Source: Sphingomonas sp. CCH9-E2 (GTDB lineage: Bacteria; Pseudomonadota; Alphaproteobacteria; Sphingomonadales; Sphingomonadaceae). Taken from it: a stretch of 26,311 nt of DNA. The DNA is taken from positions 1-26,311 of the forward strand of contig NZ_LSJM01000027.1 of assembly GCF_001557215.1 (NCBI RefSeq). The letters are read 5' to 3'. The translations under genes and the position numbers were made by a program. Position 1 is the stretch's first letter. Each line of letters opens with the position of its first letter. Below the pieces are notes generated by a model. That model was not told the DNA's origin and made no database searches. It was given only the letters and a program-made list of their open reading frames with translations. This document shows, piece by piece, positions 17,676-26,311 of this stretch.

Positions 17676-17705
17676 CTTGTGTTGCAGAAATGCAACACCA
17701 TGTTG
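17676..17705 (+). promoter_or_regulatory. Heat-shock-type clpB promoter with embedded inverted-repeat cluster
   Basis: CTTGTG (17676-17681) and CCATGT (17698-17703) are separated by 16 bases, resembling the RpoH (sigma-32) pattern CTTG...CCAT. Between and over them is a perfect eight-base inverted repeat GTGTTGCA/TGCAACAC (17679-17686, 17691-17698) with a GAAA spacer. A third half-site TGTTG (17701-17705) pairs with CAACA (17693-17697). The ribosome-binding site AGGCAGGGA lies at about 17718-17726. The promoter is likely for a clpB gene; the dyads look like a regulator site lying directly on it. Confidence 0.6.
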
Positions 17706-17731
17706 TCCGGCGAAAGAAGGCAGGGACAAGC

Positions 17732-20307
<2,576 letters not shown>

Positions 20308-20311
<4 letters not shown>

Positions 20312-21033
20312 GCGACGCAGACTTCAACCTCGCGCCGTCGATCGATGTGGAAGCGCTCGCAGAACGCTTCGCGCGCAGGGGTCGCGTGCAGATCGCGCCC
20401 TTCCTCGATCCAGCGGACGCAACCGCGCTCGCCGATCATCTGCTCGCACGCGATGACTGGCGGCAAATCATGAACGCAGGTGAGAAGGTGTATGAGTCGG
20501 TTCCCGCCGTCCTTGCAACGCTGACCGACGCACAGCGGACGCGGCTTGAGGAAGTCATGAACGCGGCCGCGCGCGATGGCTTCCAGTATCGCTATCAGAC
20601 GATCCGCGTACCCGACGATGCGGCCGCACGCGCTGCGCTCAGCGATCCGCTGGCGGTGTTTGCGCGGTTCATGGCGAGCGCGCCCGTGCTCGACTTGCTG
20701 GCCCGCATCATCGGCGATACCGACATCAATTTCGCGGATGCTCAGGCAACGATCTACAAAGTCGGCGATTTCCTGACCGGGCATAATGATGGCGTGGCGG
20801 GCAAAAAACGCCGCGCTGCCTATGTCTTCGGCATGACGCCGCAATGGCGCGCCGAATGGGGGGGATTGTTGCTGTTCCACGGCGGCAACGGCGGCATTGC
20901 GGAAGGCTTTGTCCCGGCGTTCAACACGCTCAGCCTGTTCGCCGTGCCGCAGCAGCACAGCGTAAGCCAGGTGACGCCGTGGGCCGGCGGTCCGCGCCTG
21001 TCGGTCACCGGCTGGCTGCGTGCCCTCCCTTGA
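20308..21033 (+). CDS. Prolyl 4-hydroxylase-like 2OG-Fe(II) oxygenase
   Basis: A 241-residue protein with the double-stranded beta-helix iron site: H159 and D161 in TGHNDG, H217 in PQQHSVSQV and the 2-oxoglutarate-binding R230 in [10 protein letters not shown]. This is the layout of the bacterial prolyl-4-hydroxylase-like (COG3751) family, which hydroxylates protein or peptide proline or related residues using 2-oxoglutarate and O2. No signal peptide, so cytoplasmic. The start overlaps the clpB stop, giving translational coupling. The next gene is 30 bases downstream. The substrate is unknown; the neighbouring hydroxylases and sulfotransferases suggest a peptide or protein target. Confidence 0.9.
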
Positions 21034-21063
21034 TTCACCGCGTGTAATGACGGAACATGCGCC

Positions 21064-21999
21064 ATGCGCCTCAAGCAGCCCTTCCTGAAGCTCCACAAAT
21101 CATTCGACGCCGACCGGCTCGCAGCAGAGATACGCGCGCTGCCCGCTGGTGCCTGGCTGCCGCATCCGGGTAATTATCCCGGCAACGACGCCGTCCTGCT
21201 GGTCACGCCGGAGGGGCAGATGACCAACGGCTTTACCGGACAGATGAGCGCCACCGATCATCTGCGCGCCTGTCCCTATATCATGGAGGTAATGGCGGAC
21301 ATCGGTGCCGTCTGGGGACGCAGCCGGTTGATGGGGCTGGGCGCGGGTGCCAGCGTGCCGCCGCACGTGGACGTGAATTACCACTGGCGCACGCATATGC
21401 GCATCCACATCCCGGTCATCACCAACCCGCGTGTCCTGTTCACGTGCGGCGACGAGAGCGTGCATATGGAGGCTGGCAGCTGCTGGCTGTTCGACTCGTT
21501 CCGCATGCACAATGTCCATAATGGCGGCGGCGAGAAGCGGGTCCATCTCGTGCTCGACACGGTCGATGGCGAAGAGATGTGGGACTTGATCGACGAGGCC
21601 CAGAACGGAGCGCCCGCCCCGCAGCCGCGCACGCCACGCGCACTGCGGTTCGAAAAGGTCGATATGAACAAGATCATGTCGCCATGGGAAGTGCGCTGTC
21701 ACATCGCTTTCCTCGCCGAATATGCCGTGCCCGATCCGCGGCTTGAGGGCGCGCTGAACCGGCTCGAACGCTTCGCCGCCGCCTGGACATCGGCCTGGTG
21801 CGAATATGAATCCGACCCCGCCGGACTCCCAGAGTATCGGCGCCTGATCGCGGGACTGCGGCAGGATCTGATGGCGAGTGGCGGCGGCAGCCTGCCCCTG
21901 CGAAATCAGGTGCCGCTGATCCGGGCGCTGACCGAACTCATTTTCGATGTCGCCGCGCCCAACCCGGCACCGACGGCCCCCGTCGCGCTGGCATCGTGA
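21064..21999 (+). CDS. Aspartyl/asparaginyl beta-hydroxylase-like 2OG oxygenase with C-terminal extension
   Basis: A 311-residue protein. The N-terminal 170 residues are an Asp/Asn beta-hydroxylase (AspH-like) cupin: VPPHVDVNYHWRTHMRIHIP gives H101 and D103; the second iron histidine is probably H149 in DSFRMHNVHN (aligned with the family's S-F-x-H-x-V); the 2-oxoglutarate arginine is probably R159 in EKRVHLVLDTVDG. The remaining 140 residues are largely helical, contain RCHIAFLAEY and LEGALNRLERF, and match nothing I can name. It may position the substrate. The start codon follows a weak ribosome-binding site 30 bases after the P4H-like gene; the sulfotransferase starts four bases after its stop. 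Confidence 0.9.
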   Translation: MRLKQPFLKLHKSFDADRLAAEIRALPAGAWLPHPGNYPGNDAVLLVTPEGQMTNGFTGQMSATDHLRACPYIMEVMADIGAVWGRSRLMGLGAGASVPPHVDVNYHWRTHMRIHIPVITNPRVLFTCGDESVHMEAGSCWLFDSFRMHNVHNGGGEKRVHLVLDTVDGEEMWDLIDEAQNGAPAPQPRTPRALRFEKVDMNKIMSPWEVRCHIAFLAEYAVPDPRLEGALNRLERFAAAWTSAWCEYESDPAGLPEYRRLIAGLRQDLMASGGGSLPLRNQVPLIRALTELIFDVAAPNPAPTAPVALAS

Positions 22000-22003
22000 A
22001 CCG

Positions 22004-22627
22004 ATGATCCTCTCGCACCGTCATCGCTTCGCCTTTACGGCCATCCCCAAAACAGGAACTCACTCGATCCGGCAGGCGCTGCGTGCACATCTGGGCGAAG
22101 AGGATGAGGAACAGGTGCGGCTGTTCGTCGAGAAGCGCATGGCCGCACCCGAACTGGCGCGGCTGGGGCATGGCCATATCAGCCTCGCTGAGCTGCGCCC
22201 CGCGCTCGGCGAGGAGCGCTTTGCCGACTATTTCAAATTCGCCTTCGTGCGTAATCCGTTCGACCGCTTCGTGTCCTATTGCGCGTTCGCAACGAGCCAA
22301 CAGGGGACGTTCAAACACGACCCGCAGGGCGTGATGCGTCACTTCCTGTTCACCGCACCGCCACATCACCACGTGATCTTCCGCCCGCAGCACAGCTTCA
22401 TCACCGCGCCGGACGGGACGCTGCTCGCCGACCAGCTTGGGCGCGTCGAGGATATGCAGGGCAGCTATGACGCGATCTGCGCCAGGATCGGTATTCCATC
22501 GACCCCGCTGGGCCGCGCCAATACGTCCGAGCATCGCGACTATCGCAGTTACTACGACCAAATGCTGATCGACGGGGTCGCGCGACTCTATGCCCGCGAC
22601 CTTGAGTTGTTCGGTTACGAATTCTAG
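22004..22627 (+). CDS. Sulfotransferase (Sulfotransfer_2 family)
   Basis: A 207-residue protein with PAPS-binding features: the 5'-phosphosulfate loop IPKTGTHSIR (14-23) and the 3'-phosphate motif FVRNPFDRFVS (81-91), then PQHSFI and a VEDMQGSYDAICARIG stretch and an SEHRDYRSYYD ending, all typical of the short Sulfotransfer_2 family. It would move sulfate from PAPS to a hydroxyl or amine of a sugar, lipid or peptide. ATG 22004 starts directly at the conserved N-terminus. It lies between the two AspH-like genes (4- and 12-base gaps), so it is part of the same transcript. Confidence 0.92.
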   Translation: MILSHRHRFAFTAIPKTGTHSIRQALRAHLGEEDEEQVRLFVEKRMAAPELARLGHGHISLAELRPALGEERFADYFKFAFVRNPFDRFVSYCAFATSQQGTFKHDPQGVMRHFLFTAPPHHHVIFRPQHSFITAPDGTLLADQLGRVEDMQGSYDAICARIGIPSTPLGRANTSEHRDYRSYYDQMLIDGVARLYARDLELFGYEF

Positions 22628-22639
22628 GGGGCCGCAGCG

Positions 22640-23230
22640 ATGTATCCCAATCCCCGCAAGACCCAATCCATCCGCCGACTGGGGCCGGTCGATGTATCGG
22701 CGTTGCGCGCTGCTGTGGCAGCGATTCCGGAGACACTGTGGGACGCCGAAAATGCGGCAAAGCCCAACCGCTTCGAAGCGCTCGATTCGACGCGCCACAT
22801 CGTATTCCGCTTCGTCGATGGCGTAGATGACTGGCGCCGCAGCCATGACCGCGCGCTATGGGCGCAGTGGCAGCCGCTGCTTGATCCGGTGCTGACCGCT
22901 GCGGTCGCGCCCTATGGCTATGCGCGCGGCACCTTCCCACGCGTTATGCTCGCCCGAATGCGCCCCGGCGGGGTGATCCGCCCGCATCGTGATGCCAACC
23001 CCGCCGCGAAATGGCCGCACAAGATTCACGTGCCGCTCGAAACCAATGACGGCGTCACCTTCTTCACCGGCGACACGGGACATCATCTGCCGATCGGTGA
23101 GGCGGTCGAGGTCGACAATATGGGCGTGCATTCGGTTACGAACGCCGGCGCGACGGATCGCGTGCATCTGATCTTCGAATATTACGACATGGATCAGCCC
23201 GATCCGGAGTGGATGGCCGGCCAGAGCTAA
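22640..23230 (+). CDS. Aspartyl/asparaginyl beta-hydroxylase-like 2OG oxygenase (short)
   Basis: A 196-residue single-domain AspH-like protein. Iron ligands: H116 and D118 in RPHRDANP, then H164 in MGVHSVTNAG; the 2-oxoglutarate arginine is R174 in TDRVHLIFEYYD. A K-I-H-V-P-L-E-T-N strand precedes DGVTFFTGDTG as in this family. It is the last gene of the clpB-oxygenase-sulfotransferase run. It differs from the 311-residue protein in having no C-terminal extension, so the two are likely to act on different substrates or residues. The start follows a GGGGG box at usable spacing. Confidence 0.9.
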   Translation: MYPNPRKTQSIRRLGPVDVSALRAAVAAIPETLWDAENAAKPNRFEALDSTRHIVFRFVDGVDDWRRSHDRALWAQWQPLLDPVLTAAVAPYGYARGTFPRVMLARMRPGGVIRPHRDANPAAKWPHKIHVPLETNDGVTFFTGDTGHHLPIGEAVEVDNMGVHSVTNAGATDRVHLIFEYYDMDQPDPEWMAGQS

Positions 23231-23264
23231 CCGCCAGATCGACCCGCTAAGCGTTGGCGATCGG

Positions 23265-23486
23265 TCATTCCCTACTGGTATTGATCACCGGCTTGTTGAA
23301 CGATTCGGCGGCCGTTTTGCGCGCAGCTTCGGCAATCGCTTCCCACTCCGCACGCGTACGGCAGGTCGTTTTGGCGAAGCGCGTGCCGGTCTGCTTCTGC
23401 TGCTTGCACACGCGCTGCTCCGGGTCCGGCTTGGCCGGCTCGTCCGACAGGCCCGCCGCCAACAGGGCAAAGCTGGTGAGGATCAT
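23265..23486 (-). CDS. Small exported protein with two conserved-looking cysteines
   Basis: A 73-residue protein. A short signal-like hydrophobic start (MILTSFALLAAGLS) is followed by a Pro/Asp/Glu linker and a core VCKQQKQTGTRFAKTTCRTR ending in EWEAIAEAARKTAAESF. Cysteines 27 and 42 could form a disulfide in the periplasm. The TGTRF...C.T..EW pattern is one I associate with small hypothetical proteins common in sphingomonads; no function is known. ACGGAG lies eight bases upstream of the ATG. It is downstream of the TPR-sulfotransferase on the same strand but a hairpin with a T-run separates them, so it may have its own promoter. Confidence 0.75.
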   Translation of the reverse strand: MILTSFALLAAGLSDEPAKPDPEQRVCKQQKQTGTRFAKTTCRTRAEWEAIAEAARKTAAESFNKPVINTSRE

Positions 23487-23508
23487 CGGTCGACTCCGTA
23501 AAACGCTG

Positions 23509-23538
23509 AAAACGCGGTCAGGCTAACGCGTTGACCGC
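23509..23538 (-). terminator. Probable terminator after the TPR-sulfotransferase
   Basis: On the - strand, GCGGTCA (23538-23532) pairs with TGACCGC (23520-23514) across an 11-base loop, followed after one base by four Ts (23512-23509). It begins six bases past the sulfotransferase stop. Confidence 0.55.
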
Positions 23539-23543
23539 CAAGT

Positions 23544-25553
23544 TCAACTGCCAGTTTCCTGCTCCGCCGACGCTGTGCTGCCATAGCCGAATTCGGCAAC
23601 CCATGGCTCCAGAATCGGCAGGACCTGCGCCAGCTGTGGGCGATAGCGTTCCCAGCGGCCGGTTGCGCGGGTGTAGATCGGCTCGGTCACTTGCCCATAG
23701 CTTGGCGTGCGGATGAAGCCACGCGCCTTGGCGGTGCGCTGATGGTCGAGCACTGACGGATCCCATTCAAGGCCGAGGTCGTCGAACAGCGGCCGCACCG
23801 TGCCCTCGACATCCGCGATCATCGCTTCGTAGCGGACTTCATGGACATTGAGCGGAAGAATGCTCCGACACTGCTGCCAATAGGCCATCACGCGATCATA
23901 CAGCAGGCTGCCGCTGGTCAGATCGAGAAAACTCGCCATCGCCTGGGTCAGCTTGAAATTCTGCATGAAGCAGCTCAGCACTACGTCACACGGGTGCCGC
24001 ATGGCAAAGATGATCCTGGCATCCGGGAACAGGCGATGGATCAACGGCGCACGCATCATCGATAGCGGGTTCTTGTCGACGATCAGTTTCCCGACCGCGT
24101 CCGGTGCGACCCGCGCAAGTTCATCGAAATAACACCCGCGCAGCCGGATCGCCTCATGCTCGTCGATTTCAGCGATCCGGTCGAAGCTGCCCAGCTCGTC
24201 GGCCACCTGAGCCAGGATCGGCACTTCTTCCAGCACATGGACCGCCGGGTGCCCCAGCAGGATCGTGTCGAGCAACGTCGTACCAGACCGCGGAAAACCG
24301 ACCATGAAGACGGGCGAGGCCGGTTCGCGCGGCACGGTGATCGTCGGCCAGCGCGCGAACCACTCGGGCGTCGTGCGCGCCGCCAGCTGCTCGACCTCCG
24401 CCTGATAGGCACGACGATCGACGCCCTGCCCCAGCGGAGACTGGGCCATCGCCCAGTGCATCTCTTCGAACGCAGCGAAGGCCAAGCCGGTCTCGCCGAG
24501 CTGGTCGGCGACCTGCCCGACGAAATGCGACCGCACCGCCGGGTTGATCGATGCCGACCGCGCATCGCGCGCGAGCGCCAGCGCGGCTTCGAGCTTACCC
24601 TGACGCCGCAGCAGCATCGCGTTGAGGTAGTCGATATCCGCGCCCTTTGCGCCACGCGCCTCGGCCTGGCGAAGCAAGGTCTCCAGCTCGGCGATGCGGT
24701 TGCCCTGTTCCAGCAAAATGCCGAGGTTGAGCGTGGCCGGCCCGTCCTCCGGCCGGGCATTCAATGCGAAGCGATAGGATTGTTCTGCGCGTTCGCGATC
24801 CTCCAGATCCATGAACGCCAGGCCCATGGCGACGAAAATCTCGGGGTTGGTCGAATCGATGCGCGCGGCATCGGCATAGGCGACGAGCGCCTCACGCGAG
24901 CGATCGAGGCGGGTCAGCGCGTACCCAAATTCGAGCAATACGGCCGCATTGCGCGGATCGAGCCGCACCGCCTCCTGAAATGCCAGTGCGCTATCCTCGT
25001 AGCGCGACATCGACGCCAGCACGCGTCCGATATTGGTGCAGATGATGGCCGAGTCGGGGCGCAGGGTCCGGGCCTGCTGCAATGCGGCCAAGGCCGTTTC
25101 CAGCTCGCCAAGTTCATGCCGGATATTGCCGAGATTGTTCCAGCTATCGGCATCCTGCGGATTGGCGTCCACGATCTGTTGATATGCCATAGCCGCTTCC
25201 CACGGGCGTCCGAGCGCCTTGAGGATATCGGCGTGAAGGCGGCGCATCGCGTCGGGCTGCCCCGGTGCCCCGGCAAGCGCCTCGGCCTCAGCCAATTCGC
25301 CCGCATCGACCAGCGCGCGCGCCAGATTGAAGCGTGATCCGGGATTGTCGCCGCCCGACTTGAGCGCCCGGCGCAGCAGTGGCACGCCCAGCTTCGGTGC
25401 GCCGAGCTGGCAATGCGCAATGCCCGCGATCTGCAGCGCAGCTGGATTGTTCGGTGCCGCCTTGAGGACCTGCTCGGCCAGCTGCCGCGCCCCCGCCGGG
25501 TCACCACGACCGAAAAGCGCTGCGGCCTTTTGCAGAGTCTGCTGGATGTTCAT
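23544..25553 (-). CDS. TPR-repeat sulfotransferase fusion protein
   Basis: A 669-residue protein without signal peptide: about ten TPR-type repeats over residues 1-380 (for example DSWNNLGNIRHELGELETAL) and a C-terminal Sulfotransfer_3-like domain. The PAPS 5'-loop is VGFPRSGTT (418-426); the 3'-phosphate site is ARIIFAMRHPCDVVLSCF with R519 and S527. TPRs probably select a protein or peptide substrate, as in TPR-fused glycosyl- and sulfotransferases; the tyrosylprotein sulfotransferases share this C-terminal fold. It lies 139 bases downstream of the TonB-dependent receptor, across a strong terminator, so it has its own promoter or depends on read-through. The ribosome-binding site is weak. 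Confidence 0.93.
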   Translation of the reverse strand: MNIQQTLQKAAALFGRGDPAGARQLAEQVLKAAPNNPAALQIAGIAHCQLGAPKLGVPLLRRALKSGGDNPGSRFNLARALVDAGELAEAEALAGAPGQPDAMRRLHADILKALGRPWEAAMAYQQIVDANPQDADSWNNLGNIRHELGELETALAALQQARTLRPDSAIICTNIGRVLASMSRYEDSALAFQEAVRLDPRNAAVLLEFGYALTRLDRSREALVAYADAARIDSTNPEIFVAMGLAFMDLEDRERAEQSYRFALNARPEDGPATLNLGILLEQGNRIAELETLLRQAEARGAKGADIDYLNAMLLRRQGKLEAALALARDARSASINPAVRSHFVGQVADQLGETGLAFAAFEEMHWAMAQSPLGQGVDRRAYQAEVEQLAARTTPEWFARWPTITVPREPASPVFMVGFPRSGTTLLDTILLGHPAVHVLEEVPILAQVADELGSFDRIAEIDEHEAIRLRGCYFDELARVAPDAVGKLIVDKNPLSMMRAPLIHRLFPDARIIFAMRHPCDVVLSCFMQNFKLTQAMASFLDLTSGSLLYDRVMAYWQQCRSILPLNVHEVRYEAMIADVEGTVRPLFDDLGLEWDPSVLDHQRTAKARGFIRTPSYGQVTEPIYTRATGRWERYRPQLAQVLPILEPWVAEFGYGSTASAEQETGS

Positions 25554-25636
25554 GCCGTTACCCGAACCCGCGTAGCGCGATCATGCCGGCGGCAGTGCGC
25601 GCGCGCTGTGTCATACCGATGCGGGCACCTTGCCCC

Positions 25637-25670
25637 AAAAAAGAAGGGCGAGGCAATCGCCTCGCCCTTC
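25637..25670 (-). terminator. Intrinsic terminator of the TonB-dependent receptor gene
   Basis: Perfect 12-base arms (25643-25654 and 25659-25670) with a four-base loop AATC, followed on the - strand by six Ts (25642-25637). It starts 22 bases after the receptor stop. A run of four As on the other side gives some ability to work from the + strand too. Confidence 0.92.
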
Positions 25671-25692
25671 AAAAGCGGCTGATCCAGTCGGA

Positions 25693-26310
25693 TCAGAACT
25701 TGAGCCGCGTCGATACGTAGAAGCGGCGGCCGATGACGTCGTAGGTCGACGGATCGGTGCCCGACTGCACGTTCGGTGCGTAGGTCGGCGGCTTGCGGTC
25801 GAACGCGTTGTTCAGACCCAGGCGCAGCGTCATATTGTCGACCTGGCCCTGCAGGGCGAAGTCGAAATACCAGACCGAGCCCGGACCGGTGAACTTCTCG
25901 CCGATAAACTGGCGAGCCGCGCGGTTCTCCATCCCGTCGATGTAGCGCACGCGGCTCTGCAGCGAGAACGCCTTGTTCAGGTTGAAGCCGACATTCATCG
26001 TGCCCTTCCATTCCGGGAAGCTGGTGCCGAGACCAGCGCCGAAATAGGAAGCGGTGCCCGCATAATCGGTCTGCAGACCGCCAAGGCCGGTCACCTTGAA
26101 GTCGAACAGATAGTTCAGGAGCAGGTTGAAGTTGATCGACGATTCCGGCCCGACGAACTCGGTCGGCAGGTTGTAACCAAGCTGGAAGTCGATGCCCGAG
26201 GTCTTGACCGACCCCTGGTTGACCGCCTGGAAATAACCCGTTGCCGGATCACCACCCTGGTCTGCCCCCACCGAGTGGACCGATTGGTTTGTTAGTGCAT
26301 TAAGCTCATC
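25693..26310 (-). CDS. TonB-dependent outer-membrane receptor, C-terminal part (partial)
   Basis: The frame is open from the window edge to TGA at 25693-25695, giving the last 205 residues; the start is outside the window. The sequence is a run of transmembrane beta-hairpins (GIDFQLGYNL, INFNLLLNYLFDFKV, MNVGFNLNKAFSLQSRVRYI, WYFDFALQGQ, MTLRLGLNNAFDRKPPTY) and ends YVSTRLKF, the C-terminal aromatic signature of outer-membrane barrels. L-G-L-N-N-A-F-D-R-x-P-P is the usual penultimate-strand motif of sphingomonad TonB-dependent receptors. The ligand is not deducible from this part. A strong terminator follows it, then the TPR-sulfotransferase gene on the same strand. Confidence 0.92.
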   Translation of the reverse strand, partial: DELNALTNQSVHSVGADQGGDPATGYFQAVNQGSVKTSGIDFQLGYNLPTEFVGPESSINFNLLLNYLFDFKVTGLGGLQTDYAGTASYFGAGLGTSFPEWKGTMNVGFNLNKAFSLQSRVRYIDGMENRAARQFIGEKFTGPGSVWYFDFALQGQVDNMTLRLGLNNAFDRKPPTYAPNVQSGTDPSTYDVIGRRFYVSTRLKF

Positions 26311-26311
26311 G

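Follow-up and report, generated by a model that had tools for sequence, protein, structure and literature searches.

Hydroxylase and sulfotransferase genes beside a TonB-dependent receptor gene in Sphingomonas: a possible two-module arrangement

Genes of the locus

The window, the whole 26,311 nt stretch of Sphingomonas sp. CCH9-E2 DNA that was analysed here (contig NZ_LSJM01000027.1), ends in a cluster of oxygenase and sulfotransferase genes beside a gene for a TonB-dependent receptor (positions 20308 to 26311). Enzyme genes A, B, C and D follow one another on the plus strand, while a small protein of 73 codons (S73), enzyme gene E and the receptor are encoded on the minus strand. Gene A (20308..21033) encodes a 241-residue P4H/OGFOD1-like 2-oxoglutarate (2OG)-Fe(II) oxygenase (Pfam PF13661/PF13640), and its start codon overlaps the stop codon of the upstream clpB gene (17690-20311) in the sequence ATGA. 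Gene B (21064..21999) encodes an AspH-like hydroxylase of 311 residues with a helical C-terminal extension (PF05118), and gene D (22640..23230) a short AspH-like hydroxylase of 196 residues from the same family. Between them, gene C (22004..22627) encodes a minimal sulfotransferase of 207 residues that uses 3′-phosphoadenosine 5′-phosphosulfate (PAPS; Sulfotransfer_2, PF03567); its start most likely lies at 22004 and not at 21947, because 19 aligned homologues begin at the equivalent methionine. Gene E (23544..25553) encodes a 669-residue sulfotransferase fused to tetratricopeptide repeats (TPR), with a catalytic domain of the Sulfotransfer_3 family (PF13469) resembling tyrosylprotein sulfotransferase (TPST). 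An earlier reading of the same sequence (the original prediction) also reported an adjoining TonB-dependent receptor; a receptor gene is present, but only as a C-terminal piece of 187 codons (25693..26256), interrupted by an IS3-type insertion sequence that the original prediction did not mention, as it did not mention S73.

Throughout, L-numbers denote the homologous loci and G-numbers the genomes that were compared, as labels of this analysis. Comparison with L004 and L001 yields ratios of nonsynonymous to synonymous substitution (dN/dS) of 0.02-0.12 for A to E, a sign of purifying selection; they are therefore working genes, and an origin as chance open reading frames is ruled out. An NCBIfam search of the five proteins returned no naming match above the cut-off.

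Oxygenases A, B and D

A motif scan finds the complete iron-site signature HxD...H...R in A, B and D, beginning at residues 159, 101 and 116 respectively, in agreement with the three 2OG-Fe(II) proteins of the original prediction. A matches PF13661 with an E value of 7e-22 and has a dN/dS of 0.11. Its best solved relative is OGFOD1 (E 9e-4), one of the OGFOD1/Tpa1/Ofd1 prolyl hydroxylases, from which A differs by its single oxygenase domain of 241 residues and by its position in a receptor-linked cluster. A-like genes are generally not receptor-bound: among 15 PF13661 places in eight genomes, only one besides this locus (G018 C1:13854) sits in a receptor-sulfotransferase cluster, and another (G003 C7:15279) lies within about 3 kb of one. 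At L068, a receptor gene, a TPR-sulfotransferase gene and an A-like oxygenase gene occur together, and the A-like protein also matches Ofd1_CTDD.

B and D match PF05118 with 61.6 and 41.8 bits (E 1.3e-10 for D), relative to a curated cut-off of 22.6. The fold matches of B include AspH and free-amino-acid hydroxylases, which lie within about 1.3 Z units of each other, and B shares 18-23% identity with L-proline cis-4-hydroxylase, proline 3-hydroxylase and AspH of the PF05118 family. B differs from these enzymes by conserved C-terminal helices of its own and by its sulfotransferase partner. A PDB sequence search with D returned no match.

Sulfotransferases C and E

The two proteins originally predicted to carry PAPS motifs do so. 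In C, the motifs PKTGTH and RNPFDR are complete, and the Sulfotransfer_2 match scores 57.4 bits (cut-off 22) while covering only profile positions 3-97 of 252. A PDB sequence search with C gave no credible relative, its best match (E 0.013) being an unrelated protein, and Foldseek gave no match at E 0.001 or better. TPST is not among the 50 VIA-align matches listed for C, which does not exclude a kinship to TPST.

E matches PF13469 with an E value of 1.6e-37 together with TPR families, and carries the PAPS motifs PRSGTT at residue 421 and RHPCDV at residue 519. The closest solved relatives of its catalytic domain are human TPST1 and TPST2 (E 7e-14), aligned across the whole domain over 247 residues, and seven TPST sequences rank ahead of CurM (2e-7). 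By this full-domain similarity, E is TPST-like. An EE motif of E aligns with the EE of TPST1, which we take to hold the catalytic glutamate of TPST-like enzymes; the arginine residues with which TPST binds acidic substrates are not conserved in the aligned sequence of E. TPST1 and TPST2 are Golgi enzymes, whereas E is fused to TPR repeats and lacks an evident signal. Two other receptor-linked enzymes give a mixed result: that of L165 has TPST as its best match (E 2.5e-11) and that of L062 has CurM.

By activity, as described in the available part of the literature, E can also be likened to RaxST, a bacterial sulfotransferase that modifies a tyrosine of the secreted peptide RaxX, as is proposed here for E and its substrate. 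Unlike the RaxX/RaxST system, the open reading frames of 20308-26311 include no RaxX-like peptide and no raxAB-type exporter, and the S73 protein of the window is without tyrosine.

TPR-sulfotransferase genes often adjoin TonB-dependent receptor genes

Linkage was counted in 8 of 12 genomes; the count used 43 Sulfotransfer_3 rows from these 8 and all of their 258 Plug-domain matches. A gene was called long when its open frame encoded at least 480 residues, a proxy for TPR fusion; TPR and Sulfotransfer_3 were found together in 28 of the 28 long proteins scanned by Pfam (27 from fetched loci and E). A Plug-domain gene lies within 1.5 kb of 18 of the 30 long Sulfotransfer_3 genes, when 2.0 are expected from receptor density (P 7.5e-15), and beside none of the 13 short ones. 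The long set includes one B-sulfotransferase fusion, which is not receptor-adjacent. Across 8 further genomes, the long genes adjoin a receptor in 10 of 15 cases; this repeat uses 15 of 16 long rows and leaves out G025:C1:855895 (529 residues, a longer domain type), which has no Plug match nearby and whose inclusion makes the count 10 of 16. In addition, the receptor of L163 lies at 1.7 kb, just over the limit, and several loci of the repeat end at contig ends. The gaps in the repeat set are mostly below 160 bases, and the paired genes are same-strand, convergent or divergent. The co-occurrence with TonB receptors that the original prediction had put forward is thus strong for the TPR-sulfotransferases.

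The receptors beside such genes occupy about eight places in a tree of 103 receptors, and the other neighbours vary by locus (peptidase S58, amino-acid permease, flavin adenine dinucleotide (FAD) oxidoreductase, glycosyltransferase, thiolase and major facilitator superfamily genes), which makes the receptor the constant partner. The open-licence literature, with subscription papers and preprints largely outside it, yielded no report of TPR-sulfotransferases beside TonB receptors or of AspH-sulfotransferase fusions.

Several loci show variants of these arrangements. A TPR-AspH gene adjoins a TPR-sulfotransferase gene at L076:1901-5932, and at L111:4299-6134 a TPR-2OG-FeII_Oxy_5 protein, a TPR-hydroxylase counterpart of E, is encoded between two TonB receptors. 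At L072:581-6043, a single receptor gene is followed by a tandem pair of TPR-sulfotransferase genes and, further on, by a third frame with weak sulfotransferase similarity.

Tyrosine content of linked receptors

If E-type enzymes sulfate receptors, the linked receptors are expected to be rich in tyrosine. The comparison used 97 receptors of eight genomes, 17 of them linked; it left out L119 (wrong frame), L058 and L070 (broken receptor frames), and L007, L014, L023 and L027 (no same-genome controls). None of the 20 residues shifts as far as tyrosine, which is raised by 1.0 percentage point when receptors are compared inside their own genomes (permutation P 0.0002). Under a phylogenetic model with genome effects the shift is +0.71 (t 3.42, P 0.001, about 0.02 when corrected for 20 residues). 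Among receptors of up to 905 residues, a class of about 800 residues, it reaches +1.40 (P 0.0002), and the effect is limited to this class; the excess therefore supports receptor sulfation for that class, but not for the receptor of the window, whose class measures about 1050 residues. A repeat with three independent genomes (63 receptors, with L190 and L191 dropped for having no receptor frame) gave +0.75 (one-sided P 0.036).

Tyrosine in acidic surroundings gave a z of 3.8 for receptors of up to 905 residues and -1.9 for longer ones, with P 0.09 when phylogeny was included, and is not used as support. A search for a receptor column common to linked and absent from unlinked receptors turned up mainly clade markers and was abandoned. 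Lysine is raised in linked receptors too, second to tyrosine in the first set (linked receptors of G001, G003, G005, G006, G007, G018 and G035) and first in the repeat (G019, G020 and G025).

Gene B is paired with sulfotransferases of two families

Searching 84,980 species genomes with a profile of B identified 40 B loci in Sphingomonadales and Gammaproteobacteria, many of them on short contigs. B lies within 2 kb of a sulfotransferase gene, or is fused to one, in 34 of the 40. The partner is a C-type gene within 2 kb in 16 loci and a Sulfotransfer_3 gene directly behind B in 18, ten of which form a single open frame with B. The two Pfam families are unrelated, and no locus pairs B with both; six loci (L006, L010, L015, L020, L026 and L033) have neither. 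D is present in 13 B loci, and another AspH-like gene lies on the opposite strand in 7 more. The swap of sulfotransferase families, together with the repeated fusions, argues that the product of B is the substrate of the sulfotransferase or that both enzymes share one target. On this gene evidence, hydroxylation and sulfation appear to be coupled. The pairing supports the original proposal of sulfate placed on a newly made hydroxyl, but the order, with hydroxylation ahead of sulfation on the new hydroxyl, can only be inferred.

At L016, the sulfotransferase partner of B weakly matches both CurM and TPST (5e-6 and 8e-6). L034:10001-16386 contains two AspH-sulfotransferase fusion genes, with a D-like AspH gene between them on the other strand. 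B and a Sulfotransfer_3 gene stand right behind an apparent rplJ-rplL pair at L022:8897-11820 (judged by eye, with no family search) and, according to Pfam, immediately ahead of rpoB at L019:7325-13613; L018 and L020 resemble these arrangements, judged from gene sizes only.

B-C-D and E also occur apart

The gene families recur together beyond this genome, in Sphingomonas, Sphingopyxis and partly Lysobacterales, as the original prediction had asked of them. Of the 40 B loci, 11 combine a receptor with E, B and C. Eight of these are L001-L004, L007, L008, L014 and L023; the other three, L027, L032 and L039 from Lysobacterales, differ in gene order and have a distantly related receptor, and A, D and S73 were not detected in them. 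Any receptor is present in 17 of the 40 loci. The class to which E belongs is linked to receptors and for the most part occurs without B, C and D, and in the window A, B and D lie near the receptor with E in between. A single five-enzyme pathway is rejected because B-C-D and E are found apart, and the original proposal that the five enzymes act jointly as a unit is not supported: B and a sulfotransferase, with or without D, also occur away from receptors (for example at L017 and L029, which have B, C and D).

A two-module interpretation

The interpretation that we favour, with a probability of roughly 45%, is that the locus combines two modules: a B-C pair, with D, beside a receptor-linked TPST-like E whose substrate is the receptor. 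In the first module, B and C, with D, would form a cytoplasmic hydroxylase-sulfotransferase pair, which A probably joins in Sphingomonadales. B would oxidise a substrate and the partner sulfotransferase would add sulfate from PAPS, plausibly on the new hydroxyl; some relatives have the two parts fused in a single chain. The second module, E and the receptor, would be one case of the common receptor-adjacent class of TPR-fused TPST-like enzymes. The TPR part may keep the unfolded receptor precursor, or its partner, in the cytoplasm while tyrosines are sulfated by the catalytic part ahead of export. The receptor is thus the favoured, but unproven, substrate of E, and the two modules may or may not cooperate.

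Several observations weigh against this interpretation. At the locus itself, the receptor gene is broken by an insertion sequence while the enzyme genes are intact, and a terminator-like hairpin separates the receptor from E (25643..25670, minus strand; a 12-pair stem and T tail, identified by consensus match only, in a region with 5 such sites versus 4.0 in shuffled sequence). The window's receptor belongs to the class longer than 905 residues (33 receptors, 5 linked), for which the tyrosine shift is -0.14 (P 0.61), and the repeat set has only 5 linked receptors, with lysine ranked above tyrosine. Moreover, the eight linkage genomes were not random, having been picked for B loci or C-like matches, and the receptor-linked enzyme of L062 matches CurM (E 1e-6) better than TPST (8e-5). 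L017 and L029 carry B, C and D without a receptor or E in the fetched stretch, and the closest folds to B include free-proline hydroxylases.

A broader proposal is a general receptor-directed system, present in many proteobacteria, that places sulfate on tyrosines of the cell's own TonB-dependent receptors and hydroxyl groups on other residues: TPR-fused TPST-like enzymes would modify the still unfolded receptor in the cytoplasm ahead of its export, and B-C-type pairs would add a further O-sulfate mark. We consider this proposal unlikely. Should receptors indeed be modified, some bacterial outer membranes would have tyrosine sulfation as a general trait, and the view of how ligands, phages and toxins bind to these receptors would change.

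Precedents and competing explanations

By analogy of gene arrangement, the nearest precedent is the Caulobacter pair CciT/CciO. In CciT/CciO, PiuA/PiuC and Fiu/YbiX, a TonB-dependent receptor gene lies beside a gene for a cytoplasmic 2OG-Fe(II) oxygenase; at the locus studied here, oxygenase genes lie near the receptor gene, with E in between. According to the available part of PMC12004947, CciT strictly requires CciO for its function, and CciT protein is still produced without CciO. The models offered for CciO in the accessible parts of PMC12004947 and PMC12004943, namely substrate synthesis, inhibitor removal and substrate oxidation, all concern small molecules, and 'post-translational' occurs in the accessible text of PMC12004947 only in reference titles. 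The pair is also described in copper resistance in the portion available of PMC12004943. These systems have one PKHD-type oxygenase and no sulfotransferase, a word absent from the available text of PMC12004943, whereas the window combines AspH- and OGFOD1-like oxygenases with two sulfotransferases. Whether receptors or ligands are modified, the strong receptor-sulfotransferase linkage and the AspH-sulfotransferase fusions name concrete genes for study, and they extend a question raised by CciT/CciO, namely what an outer-membrane receptor requires a cytoplasmic oxygenase for.

These precedents lend themselves to another reading, that the receptor imports a compound which the cytoplasmic enzymes hydroxylate and sulfate, freeing bound iron, detoxifying the compound or initiating its degradation, in line with proposals for PiuC and CciO. 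In addition to the small-molecule models for CciO, PiuC is cited as a candidate siderophore-metabolising enzyme (PMC12004947, PMC12004943, as far as their text is available). The free-amino-acid hydroxylases among the folds of B would fit such a role, as would the amino-acid permease, peptidase or oxidase genes that adjoin some linked receptors, and a high tyrosine content could simply adapt a receptor to particular ligands. However, the TPR repeats and TPST kinship of E point to protein substrates, and the E class accompanies receptors from about eight clades, whose other neighbouring genes differ, a pattern that is hard to reconcile with one ligand chemistry. Ligand processing is possible, but less probable than the two-module interpretation; if ligands are modified, the locus would point to a new way to handle imported compounds.

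A further candidate substrate is S73 itself (23265..23486, minus strand), which has a signal-like N-terminus and two conserved Cys residues. It, or a paralogue, could be hydroxylated and sulfated by A to D before export, with E and the receptor as mere neighbours. S73 is present in 11 of the 40 B loci, corresponding to 11 of the 13 with B, C and D, and in two copies in some; of 22 genomes searched, two have strong matches, both at this locus. It matches no Pfam family, has 13 invariant columns in an 8-row alignment and a dN/dS of 0.15-0.23, and retains conserved Pro and Trp residues as well as an Asn or Asp near the C-terminus in most rows. On the other hand, no copy was found in those Lysobacterales loci that combine B, C, E and a receptor, or in the vicinity of fused B-sulfotransferase genes; weak paralogues occur elsewhere, and the lack of tyrosine in the window's copy also speaks against it. 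This makes S73 an improbable substrate.

Least probable is that the arrangement reflects history only, a mobile hydroxylase-sulfotransferase pair having landed near clpB and the receptor with a product (e.g. a surface lipid or polymer) unrelated to the receptor: B-sulfotransferase pairs do occur in unrelated places (after rplJ-rplL, before rpoB, in a paa-type stretch at L029, and near thiC at L034 and L028) and C-type sulfotransferases are patchy (near-identical in 1 of 118 genomes of the order, any match at E 0.001 in 10 of 118), but Lysobacterales loci likewise unite B, C, E and a receptor, with the genes in another order and the receptor only distantly related, and this explanation cannot account for the enrichment of E-type genes beside receptors.

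The interrupted receptor gene

The receptor piece has 90-95% DNA identity to the receptor genes of L001-L004, and this similarity ends at about 26257. The remaining 55 bases (26257..26311, minus strand) match the end of an IS3-family transposase region in two Sphingopyxis plasmids at 100%, which indicates that an IS3-type element interrupts the receptor gene and that the window stops inside the element. In relatives, the full-length receptor has about 1060 residues, and that of L001 has Plug and barrel domains by Pfam. Because of the insertion, the fragment was not accepted as evidence of a functional receptor. The best plasmid match (L232, Sphingopyxis macrogoltabida) likewise has an annotated IS3 transposase gene that overlaps a TonB receptor plug gene. 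Relative to L004, synonymous divergence is 0.16 for the receptor end and 0.53-0.84 for A to E; the low value may reflect exchange of the receptor gene between strains.

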